Assembly: GCF_001027925.1 (NCBI RefSeq)
Contig: NZ_LECT01000052.1
Location: forward strand, 1 to 64,000
Source of the DNA: Rhodopirellula islandica
GTDB taxonomy: Bacteria; Planctomycetota; Planctomycetia; Pirellulales; Pirellulaceae
Length of the DNA: 64,000 nt
Direction: 5' to 3'
Shown here: piece by piece, positions 52,377 through 64,000 of the stretch
Layout of the letters: every line of letters starts with the position of its first letter
Numbering within the stretch: the stretch's first letter is position 1
The notes under the pieces: model-generated
What the model was told of the DNA's origin: nothing
Database searches by the model: none
What the model saw: the letters and a program-made list of their open reading frames with translations, nothing else
Made by a program: the position numbers and the translations under genes

Positions 52377-53405
52377 ATGCCATCTTCTTCGTTGCTGATC
52401 CGTTTGCCCGCCTTGTCCGTTGTGGATTTGGTCGGTGCAGACGCCACCGCGATCCTGCACAACTTGACCACCAACGATGTCAAAAAGCTGACCTCTGAAA
52501 GTCCGAACCGCTTCGGATTGGAGACGTTCATCACGAATGTTCGCGGCAAGTGCTTGGGCCACGTCGTCGCCTTTGCCACTGAAAACGGGTACCGAATGAT
52601 CGGATCCCCTGGCGTCATCGCAACCGCGGATAGCGTCAGCAGCATGCGGCAATCGCAAGCCATCGCCGAGCACGCCGACCGCTACACGATCCGCGAAGAC
52701 GCGGCGCCGGTGATTCGCGACGAAGACCTGGCCGCTTGGATGGTCATCGATGGCAACGAAGAACCGGCCCAGACGACTCCGTCGCCACGCATGACGACCC
52801 AAGACGGCATCGATTCGTATCGCTTGCCTTGGGTGAAGTCCGGCACGTTGTTCTTGCTGCCCGTGGAAACCGCCCCGGAACACCCCTCGGTGATTGCCGA
52901 ACGATTGGGAGTGGAGTCCGATTCGTTGGTTGCGGGGGACGAAAACGATTTCCACGCTCATCGTCTTGCGGCCGGGTTCCCTTGGTTTGGAATCGATCTG
53001 ACGGACGCTCATTTGCCTCAGGAAGCCGACCGAGAGACGCAAACGATCAGCTTCACCAAAGGCTGTTACTTAGGGCAGGAAACGGTCGCTCGCTTGGACG
53101 CACTGGGGCAAGTTCAGAAGAAACTGGTGCGTTGGAAGCTGTCTGGATTGCCAGCGGGGACCCAGCCCGAGGCGGACGACAAACTTCGTGCTCAAGACGC
53201 GGCCGCGGATGCCAAACCGGTGGGGCGAATCACCAGTGTGGGACGCATCAACGATCAAGGGGAAGGTTTGGCCATGGGATATGCTCGCCGCAGCCACTTT
53301 GAGGCGGGATCCGTTTTGGCGGGTTCGAGATTGGCGGAAGATGTGGGCGAAGTGACCTACACCGCAGAAGTGTTGCCGCCAGTGCGAGGAGAATCGCCAG
53401 AATGA
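52377..53405 (+). CDS. ygfZ: YgfZ/GcvT-like folate-binding protein
   Basis: A 342-residue protein with the YgfZ signature KGCYLGQETVARLDALGQ (residues 228-245), whose K-G-C-Y-x-G-Q-E includes the functional Cys230. The N-terminal half (LVGADATAILHNLTTNDVKK, ETFITNVRGKCLGHVVAFAT) is the GcvT-like folate-binding fold. YgfZ is needed for maintenance of some Fe-S enzymes, such as MiaB. It is slightly longer than E. coli YgfZ (326). Its last four bases overlap the start of the ECF sigma factor gene (ATGA), an unusual coupling. Confidence 0.92.
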   Translation: MPSSSLLIRLPALSVVDLVGADATAILHNLTTNDVKKLTSESPNRFGLETFITNVRGKCLGHVVAFATENGYRMIGSPGVIATADSVSSMRQSQAIAEHADRYTIREDAAPVIRDEDLAAWMVIDGNEEPAQTTPSPRMTTQDGIDSYRLPWVKSGTLFLLPVETAPEHPSVIAERLGVESDSLVAGDENDFHAHRLAAGFPWFGIDLTDAHLPQEADRETQTISFTKGCYLGQETVARLDALGQVQKKLVRWKLSGLPAGTQPEADDKLRAQDAAADAKPVGRITSVGRINDQGEGLAMGYARRSHFEAGSVLAGSRLAEDVGEVTYTAEVLPPVRGESPE

Positions 53406-54046
53406 ACGATTTGACGCTCGAAGAGTTCGCCGATTTGCTGGAACTCGTTCGGCAAGGCGACGACGATGCCACCGCCGTTCTATGGGAACGCTACTTCCAA
53501 CCCCTCGTTCGGCTGGCAGGAACCAGATTGCCCAAGAACCTTCGGCGGTCTGGCGACGAAGAAGACATTGCGCTTTCGGCGTTCCATAGTTTCATTGCGG
53601 GGGTTCGGCGAGAAAAGTTCCCTGATTTGTCAGGCCCGGATAATCTCTGGGGACTGCTGATCACGTTGACCAGTCGCAAGGTGAACGCTCATTTGCGTCG
53701 TCAAACGCGACAAAAACGGGGTGGCGGCCAGGTTCGAGGTGAGTCAGTCTTTCTGGACGCTTCGGGGGATTCCGGTCGTGCAGGGTTGGAGCAGTTCGCC
53801 GGACGAGGCGAATCCGACAACGCCCCGCCCGACTTGAGACTGGAACTGGCCGAGGCATGTGAGAAATTATTGGATGATCTACCGGACGAGCAATTGCGGG
53901 AAATCGCAGTGATGCGAATGGACGGTTTTTTGGTAGATGAGATCGCGACCAAACTGGGCGTGAGCAAGCGAGCGGTCGAACGACGCCTGCAATTGATACG
54001 AAAAACATGGACGGAAGCGGCGGAGTCCGTGCCGGACCAAACATAG
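53402..54046 (+). CDS. ECF-type sigma factor
   Basis: A 214-residue sigma factor. The N-terminal sigma-2-like part (AVLWERYFQPLVRLAGTRLP, DEEDIALSAFHSFIAGVRRE, FPDLSGPDNLWGLLITLTSR) is followed by a long Gly/Ser-rich linker and sigma-4 with an HTH (LLDDLPDEQLREIAVMRMDG, LVDEIATKLGVSKRAVERRL). This pattern fits planctomycete ECF factors that pair with Ser/Thr kinases. It overlaps YgfZ by four bases and is followed after 62 bases by a kinase gene on the same strand, so a kinase may control it. Confidence 0.9.
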   Translation: MNDLTLEEFADLLELVRQGDDDATAVLWERYFQPLVRLAGTRLPKNLRRSGDEEDIALSAFHSFIAGVRREKFPDLSGPDNLWGLLITLTSRKVNAHLRRQTRQKRGGGQVRGESVFLDASGDSGRAGLEQFAGRGESDNAPPDLRLELAEACEKLLDDLPDEQLREIAVMRMDGFLVDEIATKLGVSKRAVERRLQLIRKTWTEAAESVPDQT

Positions 54047-54108
54047 AAGCGTTGCCAAGCTCCTCGCACACACGCTTCGATCAGAGCACACTACGGAAGT
54101 GATTCCCG

Positions 54109-57069
54109 ATGAATTTGAGTGATCTGCCTGCCCGCGAATTAGCCCGCCTCGACGCGGTGTGCTTGGAATATGAGTCCGCTCTTCGGCAAATCGCGGATGG
54201 AGAACCAGCAACCTCCGATTTGGTCAGCATTCAATCGCTTGTCGAACGACATGGCGGTGAGCACGCCGATCTGCTGCGTTCCGAATTGGAAGCGATTCGA
54301 GCCGAGATCGACGGGAACCTGGGTATCCACGGTGATTCAGGGGAGCTGACGCAGGTCCTGGCGTCTTCCAATGACACGCCGTCGCATAACCTGGCATTGC
54401 TGAACACACCCGCCCTGGAAGCGAACGGGACCTCCAACGGCTTTGGATCGCCTGCCTCGGCGGAAGAACGCGTCCAAAAGGCCTTGGCGAAGGCATCGTC
54501 CAACGACCCGGTCGATTCACTGCCGCCGATGGGCACCGAAATCGGCCCGTACCGCTTGGATGGAGTTCTGGGACGTGGCGGGATGGGCGTGGTGTACCGT
54601 GCCACCGACACCCGACTGGAACGCAGCGTCGCCGTCAAAATGCTCTCGACCAACGGGCATCCCACCTTGGTCGAAAGATTTCAACGCGAGGCCAAGGCCG
54701 TGGCTTCGTTGACCCACCCTAACATCGTCGAACTGTTCGATGTCGGGGTGCACGATGGGATGCCCTACGCCGTGATGGAGCATCTGCGTGGCGAGACACT
54801 GATGCGACGGATGGAACAGCGGCGAACGGATGTGGCACCGGTCACCACGCAAATGGTCCGGGTCTGGGGCAGGCAACTGGCCGAAGCCCTGGCAACCTCT
54901 CACGCGGCCGGAGTGATTCACCGCGATTTGAAACCCGAAAACGTGATGTTGGTTGGACGTCGCAGTGGTTCTCCCACGCCGTCAGCAGCGACCACCAACA
55001 CGATCAGCAGTCATTCCCTGGCGACACAGCCTTCGAGCGAAAACTCCTTGCCATCGGTCAAACTCTTTGACTTTGGGTTGTCGCGTGTCGGTCGCGCTGT
55101 GTTTGGCCCTGGGGAATCGGATCCTGAGAATCAACACGACGACGCCAGCAATGACGAAGATGACGCGAAAACCCGTGCGGGCATGATCCTGGGGACGCCA
55201 GGTTACATGGCGCCCGAACAGGCTCGCGGCGAAACGGTCACGCCTGCCGCGGACGTGTTCTCGCTCGGGTGCGTGTTGTTCGAAGCGTTCTACGGACGCC
55301 CCGCCTTCACCGGAAAATCACCGGCTAGCCGTTACGCAGCGGTTTTGGAGAAGACTCCCTTGCCTGATCCTGGCCGCCGTCGCGACGACATCGCGCTGGC
55401 AGATTTGATCATGGCGATGATGCGAAAAACTCCTGCAGAACGTCCCACGGCGGCGACGGTGGTCACCGCGCTTTCGAGTGGCGGTGCAACCATGCCGCCT
55501 CAGGAGGGCGAGACGCTGGCATTGCCAATGGACGGCGTGTCGCTCACGCAGCCGATTCACATGGCTGGCGGCATTTCTCGTCGTCGGTTCGCTGAAATGG
55601 TCGGCGGAAGTTTCGCGGGCGCGTTGGTTGGGATGTCTGGACTGAGCGGCAACTGGAGCAAGTTGAACCAGATTCGCTCGATTGGCGTGCTCAGCTTCAC
55701 TCCCGCCACACAACCTGAATCGACCGCGCAGGTTGATCCTCAACCCGCCGGCGGACGCATGCTGCAACGCGGTGAACTGTTGGCTGGCTTGGTCGCCAAT
55801 GAACTGAGCCGCTTGGAAGGGTTGTCGGTACCCAAGTATGTGCCGATGACCGCCAGCTTCCCCGATCAATATCGCGATGCGGCATCGAGACTCGAAGTGG
55901 ATGCCTTGGTCGCCGGCACCTTCACCGAGGCAACGGGCGCTCAAGGCGGTGTGATGGATGTCAATGTCCAAATCATTTGTGCCGAAACCGGCACGCAGAT
56001 TTGGGGCAAAGTCATTCGCACCACCGCGGGCGACAACCTGATTGAACAAACCGACCTCGCCCGGCAAGTCGCGACCGCGATCAATCGGAGCTTGCTCGAA
56101 CATCCCGGCGAATCCAAACCGCGTGACCCGGGCGCCTTCACCTGTTTGCTCAAAGGACGAACTCAAGCCGACCCGGACAGCATCGACGGAATGCGTTCGG
56201 CACTGAAGTGCTTCGACAGTGCGCTTCGAGAAGACCCCAATTACGCACCCGCACACGCGGGAAAAGGCCTGACATCGTTGACCCTGGCAGGCCGCGTTGG
56301 CGACGAAGAGGCTCAAGAGTTGATCATCCAAGCCCGGCAATCCGTTCAGATCGCATTGGAAATCGATACATCAAACGTGGAAGCTCGCTTGGCGTCGGCG
56401 ATGTTGATGTATCAGAGTCTCGGCGATCTGATGCCAGCTCGCGATATTCTGCGTGGTTTGGCGAACGAGACGAGAAACTCATGGCAAGTGCACCACCAAC
56501 TCGGCTGGGTCGAATTGATGTTGTACGAGGAGATGGCCGGTGTTCGTTCCCTTCGCATTGCCGCGTCGATGCACCCTTCTTCCAAGTTGTTGCAGTCGGA
56601 CTTGGCACGTGCCCAGTGGTTCATTGCAAACAAGACTCGCGCGGTCAATGAAGCCAAGGCCGTGATGCCCAAGAGCGACGGGGACAAAATCGGTCCCGAG
56701 AGTTTCACTCGTGGTCTGCTGATTGATTTATACGAACACAGCAGCGACTTCAAATCCGCGGCGGACTTGGATCCAGAACTCAAGTGGACTGCAACCGACG
56801 GTGCTGATCGCTACTGGGAACAACGCGAGACGCGTTTGCAAACGCTCCCGTATGGTCCCTACGGGCCTTCCTTGAACGAAACCATTCTGCAGCTCCGCCG
56901 CACCGATGTTCCAACGCGAGAACCGGCCGAGCAACGATTGGCGAGACTGCTTCAAACCCGCAGCCCGATGCTGCCGTTGCTGTTGATCAAACACCCGCAA
57001 TTCGATTCCATGCGGACGCTGCCAGCGGCTGGTGAAGCGTTCCCGGTGCTGAACCCACGCAACATCTGA
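54109..57069 (+). CDS. Ser/Thr protein kinase with TPR-like repeats
   Basis: A 986-residue protein. The kinase domain (about 145-460) has the P-loop VLGRGGMGVVYRATD (153-167), catalytic Lys177 (VAVKML), HRDLKPEN with Asp273, DFG Asp321 and the APE motif at 368-370. A ~40-residue insert separates the catalytic loop from DFG, and an acidic insert (DPENQHDDASNDEDDAK) sits in the activation loop. Near residue 490 there is a Tat-signal-like segment (GISRRRFAEMVGGSFAGALV), then a TolB-like N-terminal part (GVLSFTPATQPEST, LAGLVANELSRLEGLSVPKY) and TPR-like repeats (GMRSALKCFDSALREDPNYA) to the C-terminus. It probably partners the ECF sigma factor 62 bases upstream. Confidence 0.92.
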   Translation: MNLSDLPARELARLDAVCLEYESALRQIADGEPATSDLVSIQSLVERHGGEHADLLRSELEAIRAEIDGNLGIHGDSGELTQVLASSNDTPSHNLALLNTPALEANGTSNGFGSPASAEERVQKALAKASSNDPVDSLPPMGTEIGPYRLDGVLGRGGMGVVYRATDTRLERSVAVKMLSTNGHPTLVERFQREAKAVASLTHPNIVELFDVGVHDGMPYAVMEHLRGETLMRRMEQRRTDVAPVTTQMVRVWGRQLAEALATSHAAGVIHRDLKPENVMLVGRRSGSPTPSAATTNTISSHSLATQPSSENSLPSVKLFDFGLSRVGRAVFGPGESDPENQHDDASNDEDDAKTRAGMILGTPGYMAPEQARGETVTPAADVFSLGCVLFEAFYGRPAFTGKSPASRYAAVLEKTPLPDPGRRRDDIALADLIMAMMRKTPAERPTAATVVTALSSGGATMPPQEGETLALPMDGVSLTQPIHMAGGISRRRFAEMVGGSFAGALVGMSGLSGNWSKLNQIRSIGVLSFTPATQPESTAQVDPQPAGGRMLQRGELLAGLVANELSRLEGLSVPKYVPMTASFPDQYRDAASRLEVDALVAGTFTEATGAQGGVMDVNVQIICAETGTQIWGKVIRTTAGDNLIEQTDLARQVATAINRSLLEHPGESKPRDPGAFTCLLKGRTQADPDSIDGMRSALKCFDSALREDPNYAPAHAGKGLTSLTLAGRVGDEEAQELIIQARQSVQIALEIDTSNVEARLASAMLMYQSLGDLMPARDILRGLANETRNSWQVHHQLGWVELMLYEEMAGVRSLRIAASMHPSSKLLQSDLARAQWFIANKTRAVNEAKAVMPKSDGDKIGPESFTRGLLIDLYEHSSDFKSAADLDPELKWTATDGADRYWEQRETRLQTLPYGPYGPSLNETILQLRRTDVPTREPAEQRLARLLQTRSPMLPLLLIKHPQFDSMRTLPAAGEAFPVLNPRNI

Positions 57070-57125: not shown

Positions 57126-59327
57126 TCAGTTCGTGGCCTCGGCGGCTTCCGCCAGAGCGTTTTGGAACCAGCGTTTCAGTCGCGTGGCGATGGGAGCTTG
57201 ATGCCAACCGAAATGCGCTTCCAAACGCATCCCTGCTGGCACGCGTTGGGCCTCGGTTGCCGACAGTTTCAGGACGCCTCGAAAATGCGGTTGCAGCAAT
57301 CGCATCGCATCGATCGTTGCCTCTCCTAAACGATCATCACTCGAGGATACCGCCGAGGACTCATCCTTCATGCGAACCGCCAGTGGTCCCCCGTGAGTGG
57401 CGGCCAACGATGCGTTGGGCACTCGGTCGGATGCTCGTGGCTGAAGTTGATCGAGCGTGCCCCAAAACGTCTGCCGTCCAGCCGAAACCAACCGCACCGG
57501 TTCCCCGATTTGCTGTCGTACGTCTTCGACCTGAGACTGATTGATCACCGCCAAGACTTCTTTGTCCGTCGGCGTCGCAACCACCATCAGCACATCACCT
57601 TCGTTCACGTACGTGTTGAGTTTTGACAGCAAATCCTCGGCGATCACGCATCCCGATTGAACGGCCCGAACCTGCAACTGATCGGACTGCTTTCGAAGCG
57701 TTTGCAGTTTGTCCGAGATCGCTTGGCGATTGTCCAACAAAATCAGCCGCTCGGATTCCTCTCGTGACTCGATCGCTTTGCGAAGCCGGATGTCATTTTG
57801 CTGCTGTGCAATTCCCAACTCCGCGACTCGCTGCAGCAGCTCGCGGTTCTCGATGACCGCCAACCGGTCGCCCGCCTGAACCTGGTCTCCCGCGTTCACC
57901 AACAGTTCCACCAGGAACCCTTCCGCACCGACTCGCACGGCCGACTCCGGACGATACTGAACCACCACCGGAACTCGAACCGATGAGGGCACTGGCATCG
58001 CGACCAACATCCATCCGAGCATCCCCACTGCCAACGAACCAAGCCCCGCGCCGCGGCACACCTGAAGCGGGTGCGTGCGCCACAGCGTCCGCGTCGATTG
58101 CAACCAAGTCACAAACGGTTTGCCCCACCACATCCATCCTCCCAACACCGACAGCAAAACCCCTGCACCACCGAGCATTGTCGACGCCGCGATGCCCAGC
58201 GACACGCAGACGAGCACCCGCCAAGCGACCGCGCACCATCCGTAAACGAACACGGCCGTCCGTCGCCAACCCGTGTGGGAGCGAACCCAAGTGGCATCCC
58301 CCAAAAACCAACGCCGCAAGAACTGGCGCACCGATTGGTTGGCTTCGGTGGCCAAGTTGGGAACGTCCATCCCATCCGAAAGCATGAAGTAGCCATCGAA
58401 TCGCATCAGCACGTTGGCATTGAACAAAACCGTCGAAAGTCCCGCCGTGAGAATCACATGGTGACACCACCAGCGGATCATCTCGCTCTCACAGAACACC
58501 CATCCCACGATCGCAAAGGAAGCGACAACGCCTTCGACAAACATGCCTGCCGAAGCAACTCCGATTCGCGACCAACGCGACGACAATCGCCAACAACTGG
58601 AGACATCAACGTAGGCCAGCGGTGTCATCAGCACCCAAACCACACCGGCTTCTCGCACCGTCCCGCCCGCGCGGTGACAGGCAATCGCATGCCCCAGCTC
58701 ATGCACCAGTTTCAGCCCGATCGCCGTGAGCAACAACCAAGCCCAGTTGGACGGATCAAAGATCGACGCCGCCCCGGCAAGAAATTCCGACCACCGCGTC
58801 GTCAGCCCAAACAACGCCGCGACGATGAACAACACCCCGACCACCAACATCGGCGTTGAGAACAGAAACCCCAGAGCGAGTGAAAGCGGCAACAGCAACT
58901 TCGCCGCACCCGGAACCGGTGTTTTGATCCAAAAAGGATTCCACCGCATCAGTGATTGGGCCTTGGATTCGCTGGAATTTGACGTCTGACCGGAACGCCC
59001 CCTGCGAGGTGGCGGTGCATCGGCAAAGTGAGCCAATTGATGATCGATCAGCCAACGAGCGATCGACTCACATTGGGAAGACGAGGGAGCAGCACGTCCC
59101 ATCTTCGCGGTGACCAACCCGCAGGCTTGCGCGATCGTACGATGCCCGTCGAGCGCAGACAGAAACGTGTACTCGGGCAGTCCCACGCGAAAGAATTCAT
59201 GTGTGGCGGGAATTTCAATCCGATAGATCGGCTCCCCCGTTTCGCGGACGGGCCAGACCTTCACGTCACTCGCAATGCGAATCGGTTGTTGCTGCCAGTC
59301 GATGGTTCCGGGGTCACGCTGCGTCAT
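57126..59327 (-). CDS. M50-type membrane metallopeptidase with PqqD-like N-terminus and HlyD-like C-terminus
   Basis: A 733-residue protein from the ATG at 59327, overlapping the upstream stop by one base (TGATG). Residues ~18-100 resemble a PqqD/RRE-type winged helix (RVGLPEYTFLSALDGHRTIA, then CESIARWLIDHQ). The M50 core follows, with the zinc motif HELGHA (209-214) in LKLVHELGHAIACHRAGG and the second metal site FDGYF around D311 in NANVLMRFDGYFMLSD. About ten membrane helices lie between ~140 and ~460. The C-terminus carries a lipoyl/HlyD adaptor (GAEGFLVELLVNAGDQVQAG, RLILLDNRQAISDKLQTLRK). This fused layout is the 'putative peptide zinc metalloprotease' group linked to export operons. 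It is the last gene of the TolC-SecA-HlyD operon and probably matures or escorts the exported substrate. Confidence 0.85.
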   Translation of the reverse strand: MTQRDPGTIDWQQQPIRIASDVKVWPVRETGEPIYRIEIPATHEFFRVGLPEYTFLSALDGHRTIAQACGLVTAKMGRAAPSSSQCESIARWLIDHQLAHFADAPPPRRGRSGQTSNSSESKAQSLMRWNPFWIKTPVPGAAKLLLPLSLALGFLFSTPMLVVGVLFIVAALFGLTTRWSEFLAGAASIFDPSNWAWLLLTAIGLKLVHELGHAIACHRAGGTVREAGVVWVLMTPLAYVDVSSCWRLSSRWSRIGVASAGMFVEGVVASFAIVGWVFCESEMIRWWCHHVILTAGLSTVLFNANVLMRFDGYFMLSDGMDVPNLATEANQSVRQFLRRWFLGDATWVRSHTGWRRTAVFVYGWCAVAWRVLVCVSLGIAASTMLGGAGVLLSVLGGWMWWGKPFVTWLQSTRTLWRTHPLQVCRGAGLGSLAVGMLGWMLVAMPVPSSVRVPVVVQYRPESAVRVGAEGFLVELLVNAGDQVQAGDRLAVIENRELLQRVAELGIAQQQNDIRLRKAIESREESERLILLDNRQAISDKLQTLRKQSDQLQVRAVQSGCVIAEDLLSKLNTYVNEGDVLMVVATPTDKEVLAVINQSQVEDVRQQIGEPVRLVSAGRQTFWGTLDQLQPRASDRVPNASLAATHGGPLAVRMKDESSAVSSSDDRLGEATIDAMRLLQPHFRGVLKLSATEAQRVPAGMRLEAHFGWHQAPIATRLKRWFQNALAEAAEATN

Positions 59328-60760
59328 CAGACACCCAACCAGCGAAGCAGCAGGTTCCACGGACGATGAAAGACGATCCATCCGATCGGACGCTTGTTCC
59401 CATAGATCGTCGCGCGGCCCTTCATGCCGGGTCGCAGCAAACCGTCTTGATCATCCACCGTGACCTCCGCCAGAAACACATTCTCGGAATCACGCAGGGT
59501 CGCCGCAGGGTGGATTCGCGTGATCGCACCGTGCATGACTCGGTCTGGCATCGCATGCGTGTGGATCTGCGTTCGCATTCCAGCACCAACGTAGGCGATG
59601 TCTTTTTCCGGGACTTCGATCTCGACCTTCATCGCACCGACCGGCGCGATTTCAAACAATGTTTCACCGCGAGTCAGGGGAGCGCCTTCGGATTGCTTCC
59701 AATCACCACTGACGATGATCCCATCGATCGGGCTGCGGATTTCCAGGTTGTTTTTGCGATGGTTCAGCAGTTCCGTTTGCGTCTTCAACCGATCGGCTTC
59801 GAACGCCGCAATCTGGCTCTTGCCAAAGTCGTGTGTCGCCATCGACCCGCGTCGTTCCTGGTCGGCTTGGCCGTGCAACGCTCGCAACCCAGCCAGCTCG
59901 TATTCCAATTCGCGAGGGTTGATCTTCGCCAATAATTCGCCAGCCTTGACGGTGTCACCCGGACGCACCAAGCACTCCTGCAGCGGGCCATCAAAAGGAG
60001 CGGCGATGAAGCGTCGTTGGACCGGTTGCAATTGCACGTTCGTGCGAATGTTGTGGTGAGCGGGCAGGAACATCAACAGGATGACCGCTGCGACGACACA
60101 CACGGTGGCCCGTTGCCAGGTGGCACGGAACGAGCGAATCCCACGCACCAAGGACGCTTCCACACCGGTGGGCTGCAGTCGCTGAATGCTTTGAAGTTTG
60201 CTGCTTAACAACGGACCGAACGCTTCCAAAATCGAAGCCGCGGAGGGTTCATGCGGGTCCAGCACCAACAACACACCAAGATTCTCACCCGCCGTGTCGG
60301 CCAACGGGCAAGCCATCAAATTCCCGGATCCGATCGTCTTCAGCCATTGTCGCATCGCCATCGTGCCGGGCGACGATGCCACCTCGGTCGCGGCGACTTG
60401 GCTCAGTCCGTCTCCCAAACAAGCTTCTTCCGCGGCGGCCAGAGCTTCTCGCTGCTGTGTTTCCCCGTGCGATGAAGATGAAGACGATTCGACCGCGAAT
60501 TTGACACCGTTGCAAGCGTGATCGCTGATGCACTTCAATCCAGCACCAGGACGATTTCGCCAGCACAAAACAGCGCCCTCGGCCTGCAACCACTGGCTCA
60601 ACAAACGCGTGGCGATGGAGCCCGCTTCTTCGAATTCGTGACACCTGTCGAGCGTGGATTGCAGCTCAATCGCCGCCGCCAAAGTTTCGGCGCGACGCTG
60701 CAAATCGTGATGCGAGTCACGATCGAGCGAGTCGGGGGAATGGGTCGTGGCAGGGAACAC
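59327..60760 (-). CDS. GAF-domain HlyD-family membrane fusion protein
   Basis: A 477-residue protein starting three bases after the upstream HlyD gene. Residues ~25-190 form a GAF-like domain (TLDRCHEFEEAGSIATRLLS, MACPLADTAGENLGVLLVLD), cytoplasmic. A membrane helix (WQRATVCVVAAVILLMFLPA, about 216-235) is followed by the periplasmic adaptor: first lipoyl half (AAPFDGPLQECLVRPGDTVK), helical hairpin (ELAGLRALHGQADQERRGSM), second lipoyl half (EIRSPIDGIIVSGDWKQSEG) and beta-barrel (VEIEVPEKDIAYVGAGMRTQ). GAF domains bind small ligands such as cyclic nucleotides, so export may be ligand-gated. Its stop overlaps the M50 start by one base. Confidence 0.87.
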   Translation of the reverse strand: MFPATTHSPDSLDRDSHHDLQRRAETLAAAIELQSTLDRCHEFEEAGSIATRLLSQWLQAEGAVLCWRNRPGAGLKCISDHACNGVKFAVESSSSSSHGETQQREALAAAEEACLGDGLSQVAATEVASSPGTMAMRQWLKTIGSGNLMACPLADTAGENLGVLLVLDPHEPSAASILEAFGPLLSSKLQSIQRLQPTGVEASLVRGIRSFRATWQRATVCVVAAVILLMFLPAHHNIRTNVQLQPVQRRFIAAPFDGPLQECLVRPGDTVKAGELLAKINPRELEYELAGLRALHGQADQERRGSMATHDFGKSQIAAFEADRLKTQTELLNHRKNNLEIRSPIDGIIVSGDWKQSEGAPLTRGETLFEIAPVGAMKVEIEVPEKDIAYVGAGMRTQIHTHAMPDRVMHGAITRIHPAATLRDSENVFLAEVTVDDQDGLLRPGMKGRATIYGNKRPIGWIVFHRPWNLLLRWLGV

Positions 60761-60763
60761 GTG

Positions 60764-61681
60764 CTAGCGCACCGCAGGCGAAAGGGAAAGCGGTGCGTCG
60801 CTGACTCGGGTCCGTTTCGATTCGATCGATCGCGCCGACGCTTCCAAATCCAACCAGCAAACCACTCCACTGCGTAGGTCTCTGCTTTCGTTGTCCAAGA
60901 CCACTCGAACGCGGACCGTTCCCGACTCGGCGTTGGCAACCGGCGAAATGTGTTCGAGCGTTCCCAGCACTGCGCGGCGAGCCCCACCGACGCGAACAAC
61001 AACGGTTTGCCCTTCGGACAAGCGATCGACCCGTCGCAACGGGACGGAAAAGATGGCTTTCAGGCGATCGAGTTGCACCAATTGCAACAGCACCGGATCG
61101 GTTGGCGAAACAAACTCCCCCGCTTCCTTGGCAAACGAGACCACGACCCCATCCGCTGGTGCCTGAATCCGTCGTTGTTCCAACTGACAGATCACACGCT
61201 GGTGTTCCAACGCACGAACGCTCAACTCCTCCGTGACGCTTTGCAATCTCGCCAAGGCTTGTCGGTGATCGTTTTCGGCGCGTTCCAGCTCACGTGGCGT
61301 GGCATTGCCTTGCGTGAACAACCGGCGATAGCTTTGGACTTGTTGTTCACGAATGCCCACTTCGGCTTCCGCGGCCGTCTTGCCGCCAACGGCATCTTTC
61401 GCCGCTCGTGACACCTCCAGTGTTTTGCGCAACAACGCGTCCTCCAGTTGAGCCAACAGCTGACCTTCCTTGACCTCGTCGCCTTCACGAACTTTCAGTT
61501 CGGTGATCACGCCCATCTCGGATGAGGAGACGCTGATCCGGCGATAGGGTTCGGTGAAGGCTTCGTACTCATCCGCTGAGACGGTGTTCACGTAGCCGGT
61601 CCCCAGGGCTCCTGAATCCAACCAGCCCAAGCACTGCACACTCACCAAGACGCAAAGCGTCGCTATCCATTTGTGGTTCAT
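60764..61681 (-). CDS. HlyD-family periplasmic adaptor
   Basis: A 305-residue protein with an N-terminal signal or anchor (WIATLCVLVSVQCLGWLDSG). The adaptor layout is complete: SSSEMGVITELKVREGDEVK (first lipoyl half, about 52-71), a coiled-coil hairpin (REQQVQSYRRLFTQGNATPR, RELERAENDHRQALARLQSV), APADGVVVSFAKEAGEFVSP (second lipoyl half) and a barrel (RLKAIFSVPLRRVDRLSEGQ, LGTLEHISPVANAESGTVRV). It overlaps the SecA-like stop by four bases (ATGA). As an RND/MFP-type adaptor it would link an inner-membrane motor to the TolC-like duct. Confidence 0.88.
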   Translation of the reverse strand: MNHKWIATLCVLVSVQCLGWLDSGALGTGYVNTVSADEYEAFTEPYRRISVSSSEMGVITELKVREGDEVKEGQLLAQLEDALLRKTLEVSRAAKDAVGGKTAAEAEVGIREQQVQSYRRLFTQGNATPRELERAENDHRQALARLQSVTEELSVRALEHQRVICQLEQRRIQAPADGVVVSFAKEAGEFVSPTDPVLLQLVQLDRLKAIFSVPLRRVDRLSEGQTVVVRVGGARRAVLGTLEHISPVANAESGTVRVRVVLDNESRDLRSGVVCWLDLEASARSIESKRTRVSDAPLSLSPAVR

Positions 61682-63705
61682 TGTCCTGCATCCAATGCAT
61701 GAAGTTGTGGGGCCGGATCACGGTTTGATTGAGCCTTGCGAACCAATCCGCGATCGCGTTCGTCCGCTTCCAGCAATTGCCGTCGGGCCGCAGCGGCCCG
61801 TTTGGCTTGCCGCTGTTGGATCGAGGCGATCTGGGAATCCACGGAAAGTGTTTCCATTTGGTCAGTCGCGATGGCACGCCGAATCGCTCGACCAACCCAC
61901 GGGGCGGATTGGCTGACCAAATCATCTTCGGCCGACAAAAATGGCCGGCAACTGCCCGAGTCACCGCAGCGAGCACAACGGCCGATCAGCTGCCGATCGA
62001 CACGTGCCGAACGATGGTGCTCCGCCACGATCACGTGCAATCCGCCTTTGGCTGCCACATCGGGATGCAGCCGAATGTCCGTTCCGCGACCGGCCAAGTT
62101 GGTCGCGACCGTGATCGCGTGTGGTTGGCCCGCGCGGGCGATCACCTCGGCTTCCTCGGTGTTTTGCAAGCCGTTGAGCAACTCACAGGAGAGGCCTTGC
62201 CGACGAATTTCCTCCGCAACGCAGTGGCTGGTCGCGATGTCCAGCGTGCCGACCAGAACGCAACGCCCCGCGTCGGTCATTCGGCGAGCTTCCCGGGCGA
62301 TGGCAGCCACCTTTTCCTTGAACGTGTTGGTCACGTGGGTTGGGTGAACCACTCGTTGAGACGGCAGGCGAGGTGGCACCGTTTGCACATGCAAGCCATA
62401 GACCGACTTCAGCTCTTCCCGACAATCCCCCGCGGTTCCAGTGACTCCCGCCAAGTAGTCATACGAACGATAGAAACGCTGCCGGGTGATCTTCGCCAGT
62501 GCTTCGCTTTCACGCTGGATCGGCAACTCTTCTTTGGCCTCGATCGCTTGTTGCAAACCGCCGGACCAGGTTCGATCTTCATATATTCGGCCCGTGGATT
62601 GATCGACGATCCGAACGGATTGTTCGTCGATCACATAGTCCATTTCGCGACGGAGCGAATGCTTGGCCTGCAACGACAACTCGACGTATTCGTGCCAAGG
62701 CCGCCGCAGCGAAGCATCCGACCAATCTTCCAATGATTGGTAGGCGAGATCCAATCCCATGTCTGTCAGCTCAATCAGTTGACCGGTTGTTCGAAAGTCA
62801 ACCCCTTCCCGGAGTGATTCCGCGACTGAGCGGGCATGTCGATGGACCGCGGCGTCCTCCGCCTCACCCGGCCGAGTGCCTGACAGCAACAAAGGTGACA
62901 ATGCGTCATCAATCAGGACATGATCGATCTCGTCGACCAAAGCGACCGCGAGCCCACGTTGCAATCGTGCGTTGGTGGACGTCGTCGCACTCAGTCGGTT
63001 CAAGAGACCGGTGCCGGGACGCTGGCGAGCGGCCGTGTCCATGGCCAACTGGTCGCGAAGGTAGTCAAATCCAAACGCGTGCCCCGGCCCATAGGTCACA
63101 TCGGCACGATACGCCGCCTGGCTCTGTTCCGGTGAGACGTCTTCGGGCAAGCAACGGGACTCGACGCCCAGCAACGCCCACGTTTCACGCAGCTCCTCAT
63201 GATCCCGCTTGGCCAAGTACGCGTTGGGCGTTGCCACATGCACTCCTCGCCCCGGCAACGCGGCGATCAACGAAGCCACAAACAAAGCGTACGTTTTGCC
63301 TTCGCCGGTCTGCATTTCAGCAACGCCGCCCCGACGAGACATCCAGCCAGCCGAAACGATCAACCCAGCCCGCAATTGGACTTCAAACAATTCAATGCCG
63401 TGGGTTTGCTCCACGGCATCAAAGGCCAACACCAACGCGTCGACCAAACACTGTTCCCAGATCGCATCGTGTTGTCGCGATTTGCCGCGTGGATCACTGG
63501 CCAAATGTTGCACAAGACGAGTTCGCTGTGTCTGCCATCGACACGCCAAATCGCCGCGTGAACACTTCCGTCGTTCACTCAACTGGTCGCCGACGACTTG
63601 CAGAATCGTTTCGATTTCCATCGCTGGTCGTCCGGGCAACCAAGAGTGACCGGAGGCCGAAGTCAAAGCAGATCGCCAGTGGGTGGCCGCATTGAGAACG
63701 CTCAT
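61678..63705 (-). CDS. SecA-like ATPase lacking the C-terminal scaffold, wing and zinc domains
   Basis: A 675-residue protein from the ATG at 63705, overlapping the TolC-like stop by four bases. The SecA motor is clear: Walker A MQTGEGKT (131-138), FGFDYLRDQLAM (211-222), DEAD-box-type VDEIDHVLIDDALSPLLLSG (257-276), the cross-linking (PPXD) region with DYVIDEQSVRIVDQSTGRIY and WSGGLQQAIEAKEELPIQ, LAGVTGTA, CVLVGTLDIATSH, VATNLAGRGTDI (533-544) and motif VI QLIGRCARCGDSG (572-584; housekeeping SecA has QLRGRSGRQGDPG). After this only ~90 residues remain, enough for the start of the scaffold helix (IQQRQAKRAAAARRQLLEAD). The two-helix finger, wing and zinc C-terminus are missing. It is therefore a SecA paralogue, not the housekeeping copy, and probably energises export in this operon. 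Confidence 0.9.
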   Translation of the reverse strand: MSVLNAATHWRSALTSASGHSWLPGRPAMEIETILQVVGDQLSERRKCSRGDLACRWQTQRTRLVQHLASDPRGKSRQHDAIWEQCLVDALVLAFDAVEQTHGIELFEVQLRAGLIVSAGWMSRRGGVAEMQTGEGKTYALFVASLIAALPGRGVHVATPNAYLAKRDHEELRETWALLGVESRCLPEDVSPEQSQAAYRADVTYGPGHAFGFDYLRDQLAMDTAARQRPGTGLLNRLSATTSTNARLQRGLAVALVDEIDHVLIDDALSPLLLSGTRPGEAEDAAVHRHARSVAESLREGVDFRTTGQLIELTDMGLDLAYQSLEDWSDASLRRPWHEYVELSLQAKHSLRREMDYVIDEQSVRIVDQSTGRIYEDRTWSGGLQQAIEAKEELPIQRESEALAKITRQRFYRSYDYLAGVTGTAGDCREELKSVYGLHVQTVPPRLPSQRVVHPTHVTNTFKEKVAAIAREARRMTDAGRCVLVGTLDIATSHCVAEEIRRQGLSCELLNGLQNTEEAEVIARAGQPHAITVATNLAGRGTDIRLHPDVAAKGGLHVIVAEHHRSARVDRQLIGRCARCGDSGSCRPFLSAEDDLVSQSAPWVGRAIRRAIATDQMETLSVDSQIASIQQRQAKRAAAARRQLLEADERDRGLVRKAQSNRDPAPQLHALDAGQ

Positions 63706-64000
63706 GGCAGGCTCCATTCCGGAACTGTTGGCAGCGTGAGTTGTTCGCCATCAATCATCCCGCCAAACGGTTCTGGCTCCGCTGGAATGAGCGTCGGTGT
63801 GTTGCTCAGAACAGGAGAAACATCCGCCACATCACACACCAACAGCACGCCCATGGCTTTGCGAAGCATGACCCATGAGAGAGCATGTGCAACTTGAGCT
63901 CGAACGAGACCACGTTCTTCGTCGGCCAAACGCTCTTGTGCATCGAGCAAATTCTCGATCAGCAAAATCGCGTTTTCATTCGGATCCGGCAGGTGAATCC
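63702..64000 (-). CDS. TolC-family outer-membrane protein, C-terminus only
   Basis: The frame is open from the right edge of the window to a stop at 63702-63704. The visible residues end a long helix (AILLIENLLDAQERLADEER then GLVRAQVAHALSWVMLRKAM) followed by a Pro-rich tail (LPTVPEWSLP). The LLDAQ-RLA--ER-LVRAQ pattern is that of the last coiled-coil helix of TolC-type outer-membrane channels, just before the short C-terminal tail. The rest of the gene lies beyond the window. Its stop overlaps the SecA-like start (ATGA), so it heads the coupled operon or is inside a longer one. Confidence 0.7.
   Translation of the reverse strand, partial: IHLPDPNENAILLIENLLDAQERLADEERGLVRAQVAHALSWVMLRKAMGVLLVCDVADVSPVLSNTPTLIPAEPEPFGGMIDGEQLTLPTVPEWSLP

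Follow-up and report, generated by a model that had tools for sequence, protein, structure and literature searches.

The stretch analysed here (the window, 64,000 nucleotides) covers positions 1-64000 of contig C52 of Rhodopirellula islandica (genome G000), a contig that ends at 73341, and carries a minus-strand operon of five genes which encode a TolC-like outer-membrane channel, a truncated SecA-like ATPase, two HlyD adaptors, the second with a long N-terminus (GAF-HlyD), and an M50 peptidase joined to an adaptor domain (M50-HlyD; Table 1). The genes are linked by an ATGA overlap between TolC and SecA-like, with the SecA-like start placed at M5 (63705), a further ATGA overlap between SecA-like and HlyD, a gap of 3 nucleotides between HlyD and GAF-HlyD, and the 1-base overlap TGATG between GAF-HlyD and M50-HlyD, with the latter starting at M19. 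The operon and its junctions are real, just as the initial annotation of this DNA described them, and Pfam and NCBIfam models recognise SecA_DEAD, P-loop_SecA and SecA_PP_bind in the ATPase, HlyD domains in three proteins, OEP in the TolC-like protein and, below its cut-off, M50. An envelope-spanning exporter, as envisaged in that annotation, is supported.

Table 1. Positions of the exporter genes and of the neighbouring giant gene on contig C52
Feature	Positions	Strand	Length (amino acids)	Remarks
TolC-like outer-membrane channel	63702-65927 (only the C-terminus, 63702..64000, within the window)	minus	741	OEP, 2e-17
Truncated SecA-like ATPase	61678-63717	minus	679	probable start M5, 63705; DEAD, preprotein-binding and P-loop domains
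HlyD/RND-type periplasmic adaptor	60764-61681	minus	305	RND_mfp 135.1 bits, cut-off 94.9
HlyD adaptor with long N-terminus (GAF-HlyD)	59327-60760	minus	477	one hydrophobic segment; GAF in some relatives
M50-HlyD	57126-59381	minus	751	probable start M19, 59327; small N-terminal domain, membrane-embedded M50, C-terminal adaptor domain
Giant DUF4347/cadherin-repeat gene	C52:66102-73341 (L006:2102-9341)	opposite, divergent from TolC	at least 2413	open to the contig end

The five-gene arrangement is not due to chance, because the same order is found in Rhodopirellula europaea 6C (L050, the closest named locus), where the five genes are 78-82% identical, and recurs at other loci, namely on contig C17 of R. 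islandica, in L096 and in four of 18 related loci (L049-L052, L050 among them). Other gene orders are common as well, such as GAF-HlyD, M50-HlyD, SecA. The R. europaea 6C copy of M50-HlyD reads as two frames of 490 and 258 amino acids (L050:10001-12255), which points to either a frameshift or an assembly error.

The initial annotation knew of no described system with this gene set, a claim that does not stand, since Kamneva, Poudel and Ward published this module in 2015, with an interpretation close to that of the annotation (PMC4452313). The parts of that paper which deal with the module describe a secondary SecA_DEAD protein without wing and scaffold, encoded with HlyD, GAF-HlyD, M50-HlyD and sometimes TolC/OEP, and propose SecA_DEAD as the source of ATPase activity and M50 as the component in the membrane, while calling the role of the module unknown. 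The present locus resembles it in having SecA_DEAD without SecA_SW beside HlyD, GAF-HlyD and M50-HlyD genes, in the same phyla. The main text of the paper names no cargo, and the words 'giant', 'adhesin', 'cadherin', 'PqqD' and 'cargo' are absent from it; no other papers on the module were recognised in a search of the open-access literature, preprints excluded. What is new here is the association with giant proteins bearing LEPR-XLL and DUF4347, the sister loci that lack SecA, the conservation of the protease site and the fold of DUF4347.

Giant genes beside the exporter

Among the open reading frames (ORFs) of at least 150 amino acids in the 9.3 kb between 64001 and the contig end, two are large, the TolC gene and a giant repeat gene. 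The extension past 64000, proposed in the initial annotation as a way to the remainder of the operon and a substrate gene, thus yielded the rest of TolC and a candidate cargo, which that annotation had missed because it is situated past 64000. No ATP-binding cassette (ABC) or resistance-nodulation-division (RND) gene was recognised in the operon or, among ORFs of that size, from 64001 to the contig end, where TolC and the giant were the frames searched against families, which supports the earlier statement that no such pump is encoded.

The start of the giant protein (MSKWTKHWWQ... at C52:66102) is backed by its R. europaea counterpart, and it is followed by the stretch STLEPMVLFSA, a DUF4347 domain (PF14252, 172.7 bits against a cut-off of 24.6), a CSLREA-like stretch below its cut-off, and LDL-receptor-B and cadherin repeats. 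The segment LEPMVLFSA is a degenerate form of LEPR-XLL, a motif which, according to the relevant part of PMC10868602, is carried by a Vibrio protein of about 8000 residues, and the same place is occupied by LEPMVLF in R. europaea and by LEPRILF in K23_9. As regards a signal peptide, a hydropathy scan of the first 300 residues found no window of 19 residues over the threshold used.

Similar giants accompany the exporter elsewhere in R. islandica, where three of four DUF4347 genes adjoin exporters and the fourth, on C43, has no exporter near it. On C17 a DUF4347 giant of 3135 amino acids precedes TolC on the same strand, and on C53 a LEPR-XLL/DUF4347 frame of 9420 amino acids, which scores 30.3 bits with the LEPR-8K profile (NF012209, cut-off 17 bits), diverges from a TolC-HlyD-GAF-HlyD-M50 exporter. 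In Uabimicrobium, a LEPR giant of 5819 amino acids separates the SecA-like gene from the HlyD/TolC/GAF-HlyD/M50 genes. Four further M50-HlyD loci of R. islandica (C44, C43, C16 and C1; L041-L044) have adaptors, and no SecA-like gene or DUF4347 giant in the stretch viewed; these are perhaps exporters of other cargo.

The association extends across a phylum sample of 294 genomes, 67 of which contain M50-HlyD, called at E up to 1e-20. LEPR-8K exceeds its cut-off in 38 of these genomes, and 35 of the 38 have M50-HlyD (Fisher 2.7e-23), as do all ten genomes with a strong DUF4347 match (2.2e-7), where 'strong' means 90 bits, a limit fixed after the gap in scores from 93.5 to 60.5 bits had been seen. 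Of the 16 strong DUF4347 domains, 12 have M50-HlyD at a distance of 20 kb or less, including three that form one tandem in G037; among the other four, one is that on C43 and three are no more than 5.2 kb from the start of a contig, which leaves their surroundings partly out of view. Within 25 kb of one of 107 M50-HlyD places, which comprise matches entered from the phylum survey and four from the R. islandica genome, there are 10 of 107 LEPR matches, where about 2.0 are expected; a further 34 matches, nearly all weaker, were omitted from this count, and one of them, in G034, lies by eye some 12 kb from an M50-HlyD gene.

Of 11 M50-HlyD genomes reached by another route, the related-locus search, nine, including three Verrucomicrobia and a Sulfitobacter, carry LEPR-8K over the cut-off, against one of 14 control genomes, although Uabimicrobium is counted both here and in the phylum sample (G107). 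The two genomes without it are a Pseudomonas, whose locus has as its neighbour a cadherin/Ig repeat frame of 1791 amino acids, and one member of the Planctomycetota.

Given this, the hypothesis that the giants are the cargo is well supported by the sequence comparisons, and the operon may be a dedicated exporter of giant surface proteins with an N-terminal tag of the LEPR-XLL type and no classical signal peptide, a reading for which the chances appear evenly balanced. It is very improbable that the operon encodes a small-molecule efflux pump with its ABC or RND subunit elsewhere, and that the linkage to giants reflects surface-gene clustering or shared ancestry. The HlyD adaptor does exceed the RND_mfp cut-off, and related genomes have many genes in common; however, the giant genes are adjacent to the exporter in many families and not merely present in the same genome, and a tightly coupled SecA-like gene would be unexpected in an efflux system.

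Several observations weigh against a dedicated route for tagged giants. The giant on C52 scores 14.4 bits with LEPR-8K, under the cut-off, and the profile is only 24 positions long. When all DUF4347 domains over the cut-off are taken, five of 19 genomes lack M50-HlyD (14 have it), and 12 of 25 domains lie within 20 kb of it. LEPR-8K exceeds its cut-off in 22 of 36 genomes with a short SecA-like gene among the matches listed (G073, G147, G222 and G058, as contig-end or uncertain cases, are excluded), and the remaining 14 are without it; this list is a lower bound, as two genomes with seemingly long frames, G002 and G004, were later seen beside M50-HlyD. The p-values are too good, because the sampled genomes are related. 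In favour of the reading, an LEPR-like N-terminal motif was found at 17 of 50 SecA loci (26 of 436 ORFs, 12 genera) and at two of 40 control loci (two of 400 ORFs), with a pattern that was written after the case loci had been viewed and leans toward them; three of the 50 (L120, L124 and L125) proved to be a fragment at a contig end, an intermediate and a SecA of canonical type. The LEPR-8K test relies on a curated profile and is free of this post hoc bias. Tagged neighbours are also seen at certain SecA-like genes in whose vicinity M50-HlyD was not detected, among them L110, L111 and L114-L118.

The SecA-like ATPase, a possible motor or feeder

The SecA-like protein retains the Walker A, DEAD-box and motif VI residues of the canonical SecA of the R. 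islandica genome, and is missing the wing/scaffold and the two-helix finger. Its C-terminus falls where the scaffold helix begins, 91 residues past motif VI; solved SecA chains align no further than residue 653, the best of them to residues 84-653, and SecA_SW, present in canonical SecA, has no match in four SecA-like proteins at E up to 1. As judged from the sequences, the SecA-like proteins are uniformly truncated and constitute a separate branch: among 80 rows of SecA homologues, 58 (56 genes) end 66-92 residues past motif VI and 19 (15 genes) at least 298 residues past it, the last three being a contig-end piece, an intermediate (207 residues) and one without motif VI. The motif GEGKT is present in 57 of the 58 short rows, and a FastTree phylogeny of 71 sequences, from which nine rows (fragments or without motif VI) were excluded, splits 55 short SecA-like proteins from 15 canonical ones and the intermediate with a support of 1.0. 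A third SecA-like gene of R. islandica (C26, L039:8205-10391), with no exporter genes nearby, groups with L132, L082, L113 and L126 in this tree.

The SecA-like gene is optional to the exporter, given that genomes with the former nearly always have the latter, while the exporter often stands without an adjacent SecA-like gene. M50-HlyD is present in 35 of the 36 genomes with a short SecA-like gene, and when 60 SecA genes, chosen among the matches listed (plus G000), were compared with the 107 M50-HlyD places, at least 30 places, in 26 genomes, had a SecA-like gene within 6 kb. To the points already held against the reading must be added the other 77 places, which have none of the compared genes within that distance, and the exception G071, where a short SecA-like gene (L097:8685-10598) has neighbours unlike the exporter, in a genome without M50-HlyD at E 1e-20. 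The suggestion in the initial annotation that the SecA paralogue powers the exporter thus survives in part: its ATPase motifs are kept and its linkage to the rest of the operon extends to distant families, but a role as a necessary motor is not supported, in view of the 77 places and of the C53 exporter, which has no SecA-like gene between its genes. The best reading is that the SecA-like ATPase would act as motor or feeder in a subset of loci.

The same facts allow for a possible, if doubtful, division of labour in which the TolC/HlyD/GAF-HlyD/M50-HlyD proteins export the LEPR-XLL giants and the SecA-like protein is a cytoplasmic targeting or unfolding factor, export being energised by canonical SecA, a different ATPase or proton motive force. 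The adjacency of SecA-less exporters (C53, L061) to DUF4347 giants agrees with this, as does the loss of finger, wing and scaffold; yet no other motor gene is seen in the loci, the ATPase motifs are retained, the SecA-like gene is close to M50-HlyD in those 26 genomes, and the C53 exporter might rely on a SecA-like protein encoded elsewhere, for instance the one on C26.

Two putative proteases

In the window M50-HlyD the Pfam M50 match is below the cut-off (21.2 against 27.2 bits), and the zinc-site motifs are nevertheless intact, with HExxH and the following Asp-Gly retained in 14 of 14 M50-HlyD sequences; its C-terminal region has matches among adaptor structures. Most members also match curated models, among them those of the proteases that mature daptide (NF041824, 14 of 14) and YydH/LiaK (NF058609, 13 of 14) peptides. 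Kinship to these peptide-maturation proteases suggests that M50-HlyD processes a leader, and the LEPR-XLL region may be the M50 cleavage site.

The same kinship is what speaks for a machine that handles small peptides or products akin to ribosomally synthesised and post-translationally modified peptides (RiPPs), the giants being coincidental or co-regulated neighbours. This is unlikely, because the curated cut-offs are not reached (the window protein scores 130.3 bits where 300 are required) and the association with giants recurs across the phylum.

The handling of a substrate by a PqqD-like N-terminus of M50-HlyD, assumed in the initial annotation, has no sequence support, as neither Pfam nor a PDB sequence search gave a PqqD match and a profile comparison, made with only two PqqD sequences, was negative. 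In an AlphaFold model (mean predicted local distance difference test score, pLDDT, 79.5; predicted TM-score 0.51), residues 34-119 form a strand-strand-strand-helix-helix-helix topology compatible with PqqD, which is kept as a possibility at the level of the fold. Gating by a GAF ligand likewise finds no support in the window GAF-HlyD protein, which has no Pfam GAF match (PF01590); four of 13 aligned second-adaptor proteins have one.

A model of DUF4347 built from three sequences (mean pLDDT 74.5) alternates strands and helices, with a His after one strand and a Cys after a later strand, both invariant in all three sequences. The sole Foldseek match at E up to 0.001 was Tce1 (PA0256, PDB 9qpe; E 2.8e-4, TM-scores 0.47 and 0.52), and caspase CED-3 and legumain followed at ranks 9 and 22, amid many Rossmann-like matches; a sequence-profile search of the PDB with DUF4347 gave no match. 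The relevant parts of two papers state that PA0256 contains DUF4347 (PMC8262886) and that, as Tce1, it is a putative cysteine protease with a His-Cys pair that can be superposed on the pair in the protease domain of a clostridial toxin (PMC13323088). The DUF4347 of the cargo shares the paired His and Cys with Tce1, and differs from it in its setting, as it follows the LEPR-like tag in the N-terminal region of a giant repeat protein. A protease role is plausible, and, because the domain resembles a cysteine-protease fold, perhaps of the clan CD type, self-processing of the cargo is conceivable. At G037:C403:11063-16563, three frames in tandem each contain a DUF4347 domain, within 12 kb of an M50-HlyD gene.

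Convergent with the operon are two plus-strand genes (53402-57069; labels given by eye), the first sigma-factor-like and the second, of 986 amino acids, protein-kinase-like, which are kept adjacent in R. europaea (L050).

A candidate pathway and its known relatives

In the proposed mechanism, M50-HlyD would recognise the tag at the inner membrane and might also clip it, much as the curated proteases nearest to it clip peptide leaders; where present, the SecA-like ATPase would bind the unfolded chain and feed or push it into M50-HlyD, the HlyD adaptors would bridge to TolC, and DUF4347, at the N-terminus of the cargo, would then act as a cysteine protease. The widest form of this proposal, which we hold only tentatively, makes LEPR-XLL the targeting tag of a separate giant-protein secretion pathway in bacteria of the Planctomycetes-Verrucomicrobia-Chlamydiae (PVC) group and some Proteobacteria, where M50-HlyD would read and clip the tag in the inner membrane, a SecA without finger, wing and scaffold would drive the chain without SecY, HlyD and TolC would export it, and DUF4347 would finish its N-terminus.

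The module described in 2015 had candidates for its ATPase, membrane part and channel, and the LEPR-XLL/DUF4347 giants give it a specific candidate class of cargo. If the proposal is true, LEPR-XLL and DUF4347, so far an orphan motif and an orphan domain, become parts of one pathway, and a truncated SecA that truly moves protein without wing, finger or SecY would reveal which parts of SecA are needed for chain movement.

M50-HlyD resembles the daptide and YydH/LiaK proteases in its M50 region and the greater part of its N-terminal domain, which NF041824 matches over residues 35-411; unlike them, it falls far under the curated cut-off and adds a C-terminal adaptor domain. Giant repeat adhesins are a common cargo of type I secretion, and the HlyD and TolC parts of the operon recall that system. 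The differences are that no ABC transporter is recognised in the locus and that the candidate cargo tag is N-terminal, where type I cargo is recognised through a C-terminal signal, as stated in the abstract of PMC5018854.

A functional parallel would be the accessory Sec system. In Gram-positive bacteria, SecA2/SecY2 includes a SecA paralogue devoted to large repeat adhesins. This large-adhesin route is outlined in the abstract of PMC6973325. Both systems link a SecA paralogue to giant repeat proteins, whereas here no second SecY was found (one SecY in each of 15 genomes out of 15), the SecA-like protein has no wing or scaffold, and its partners are HlyD, TolC and M50. By this analogy, the exporter would do in Gram-negative bacteria what the SecA2/SecY2 route does for giant repeat adhesins, and would operate without a second SecY.

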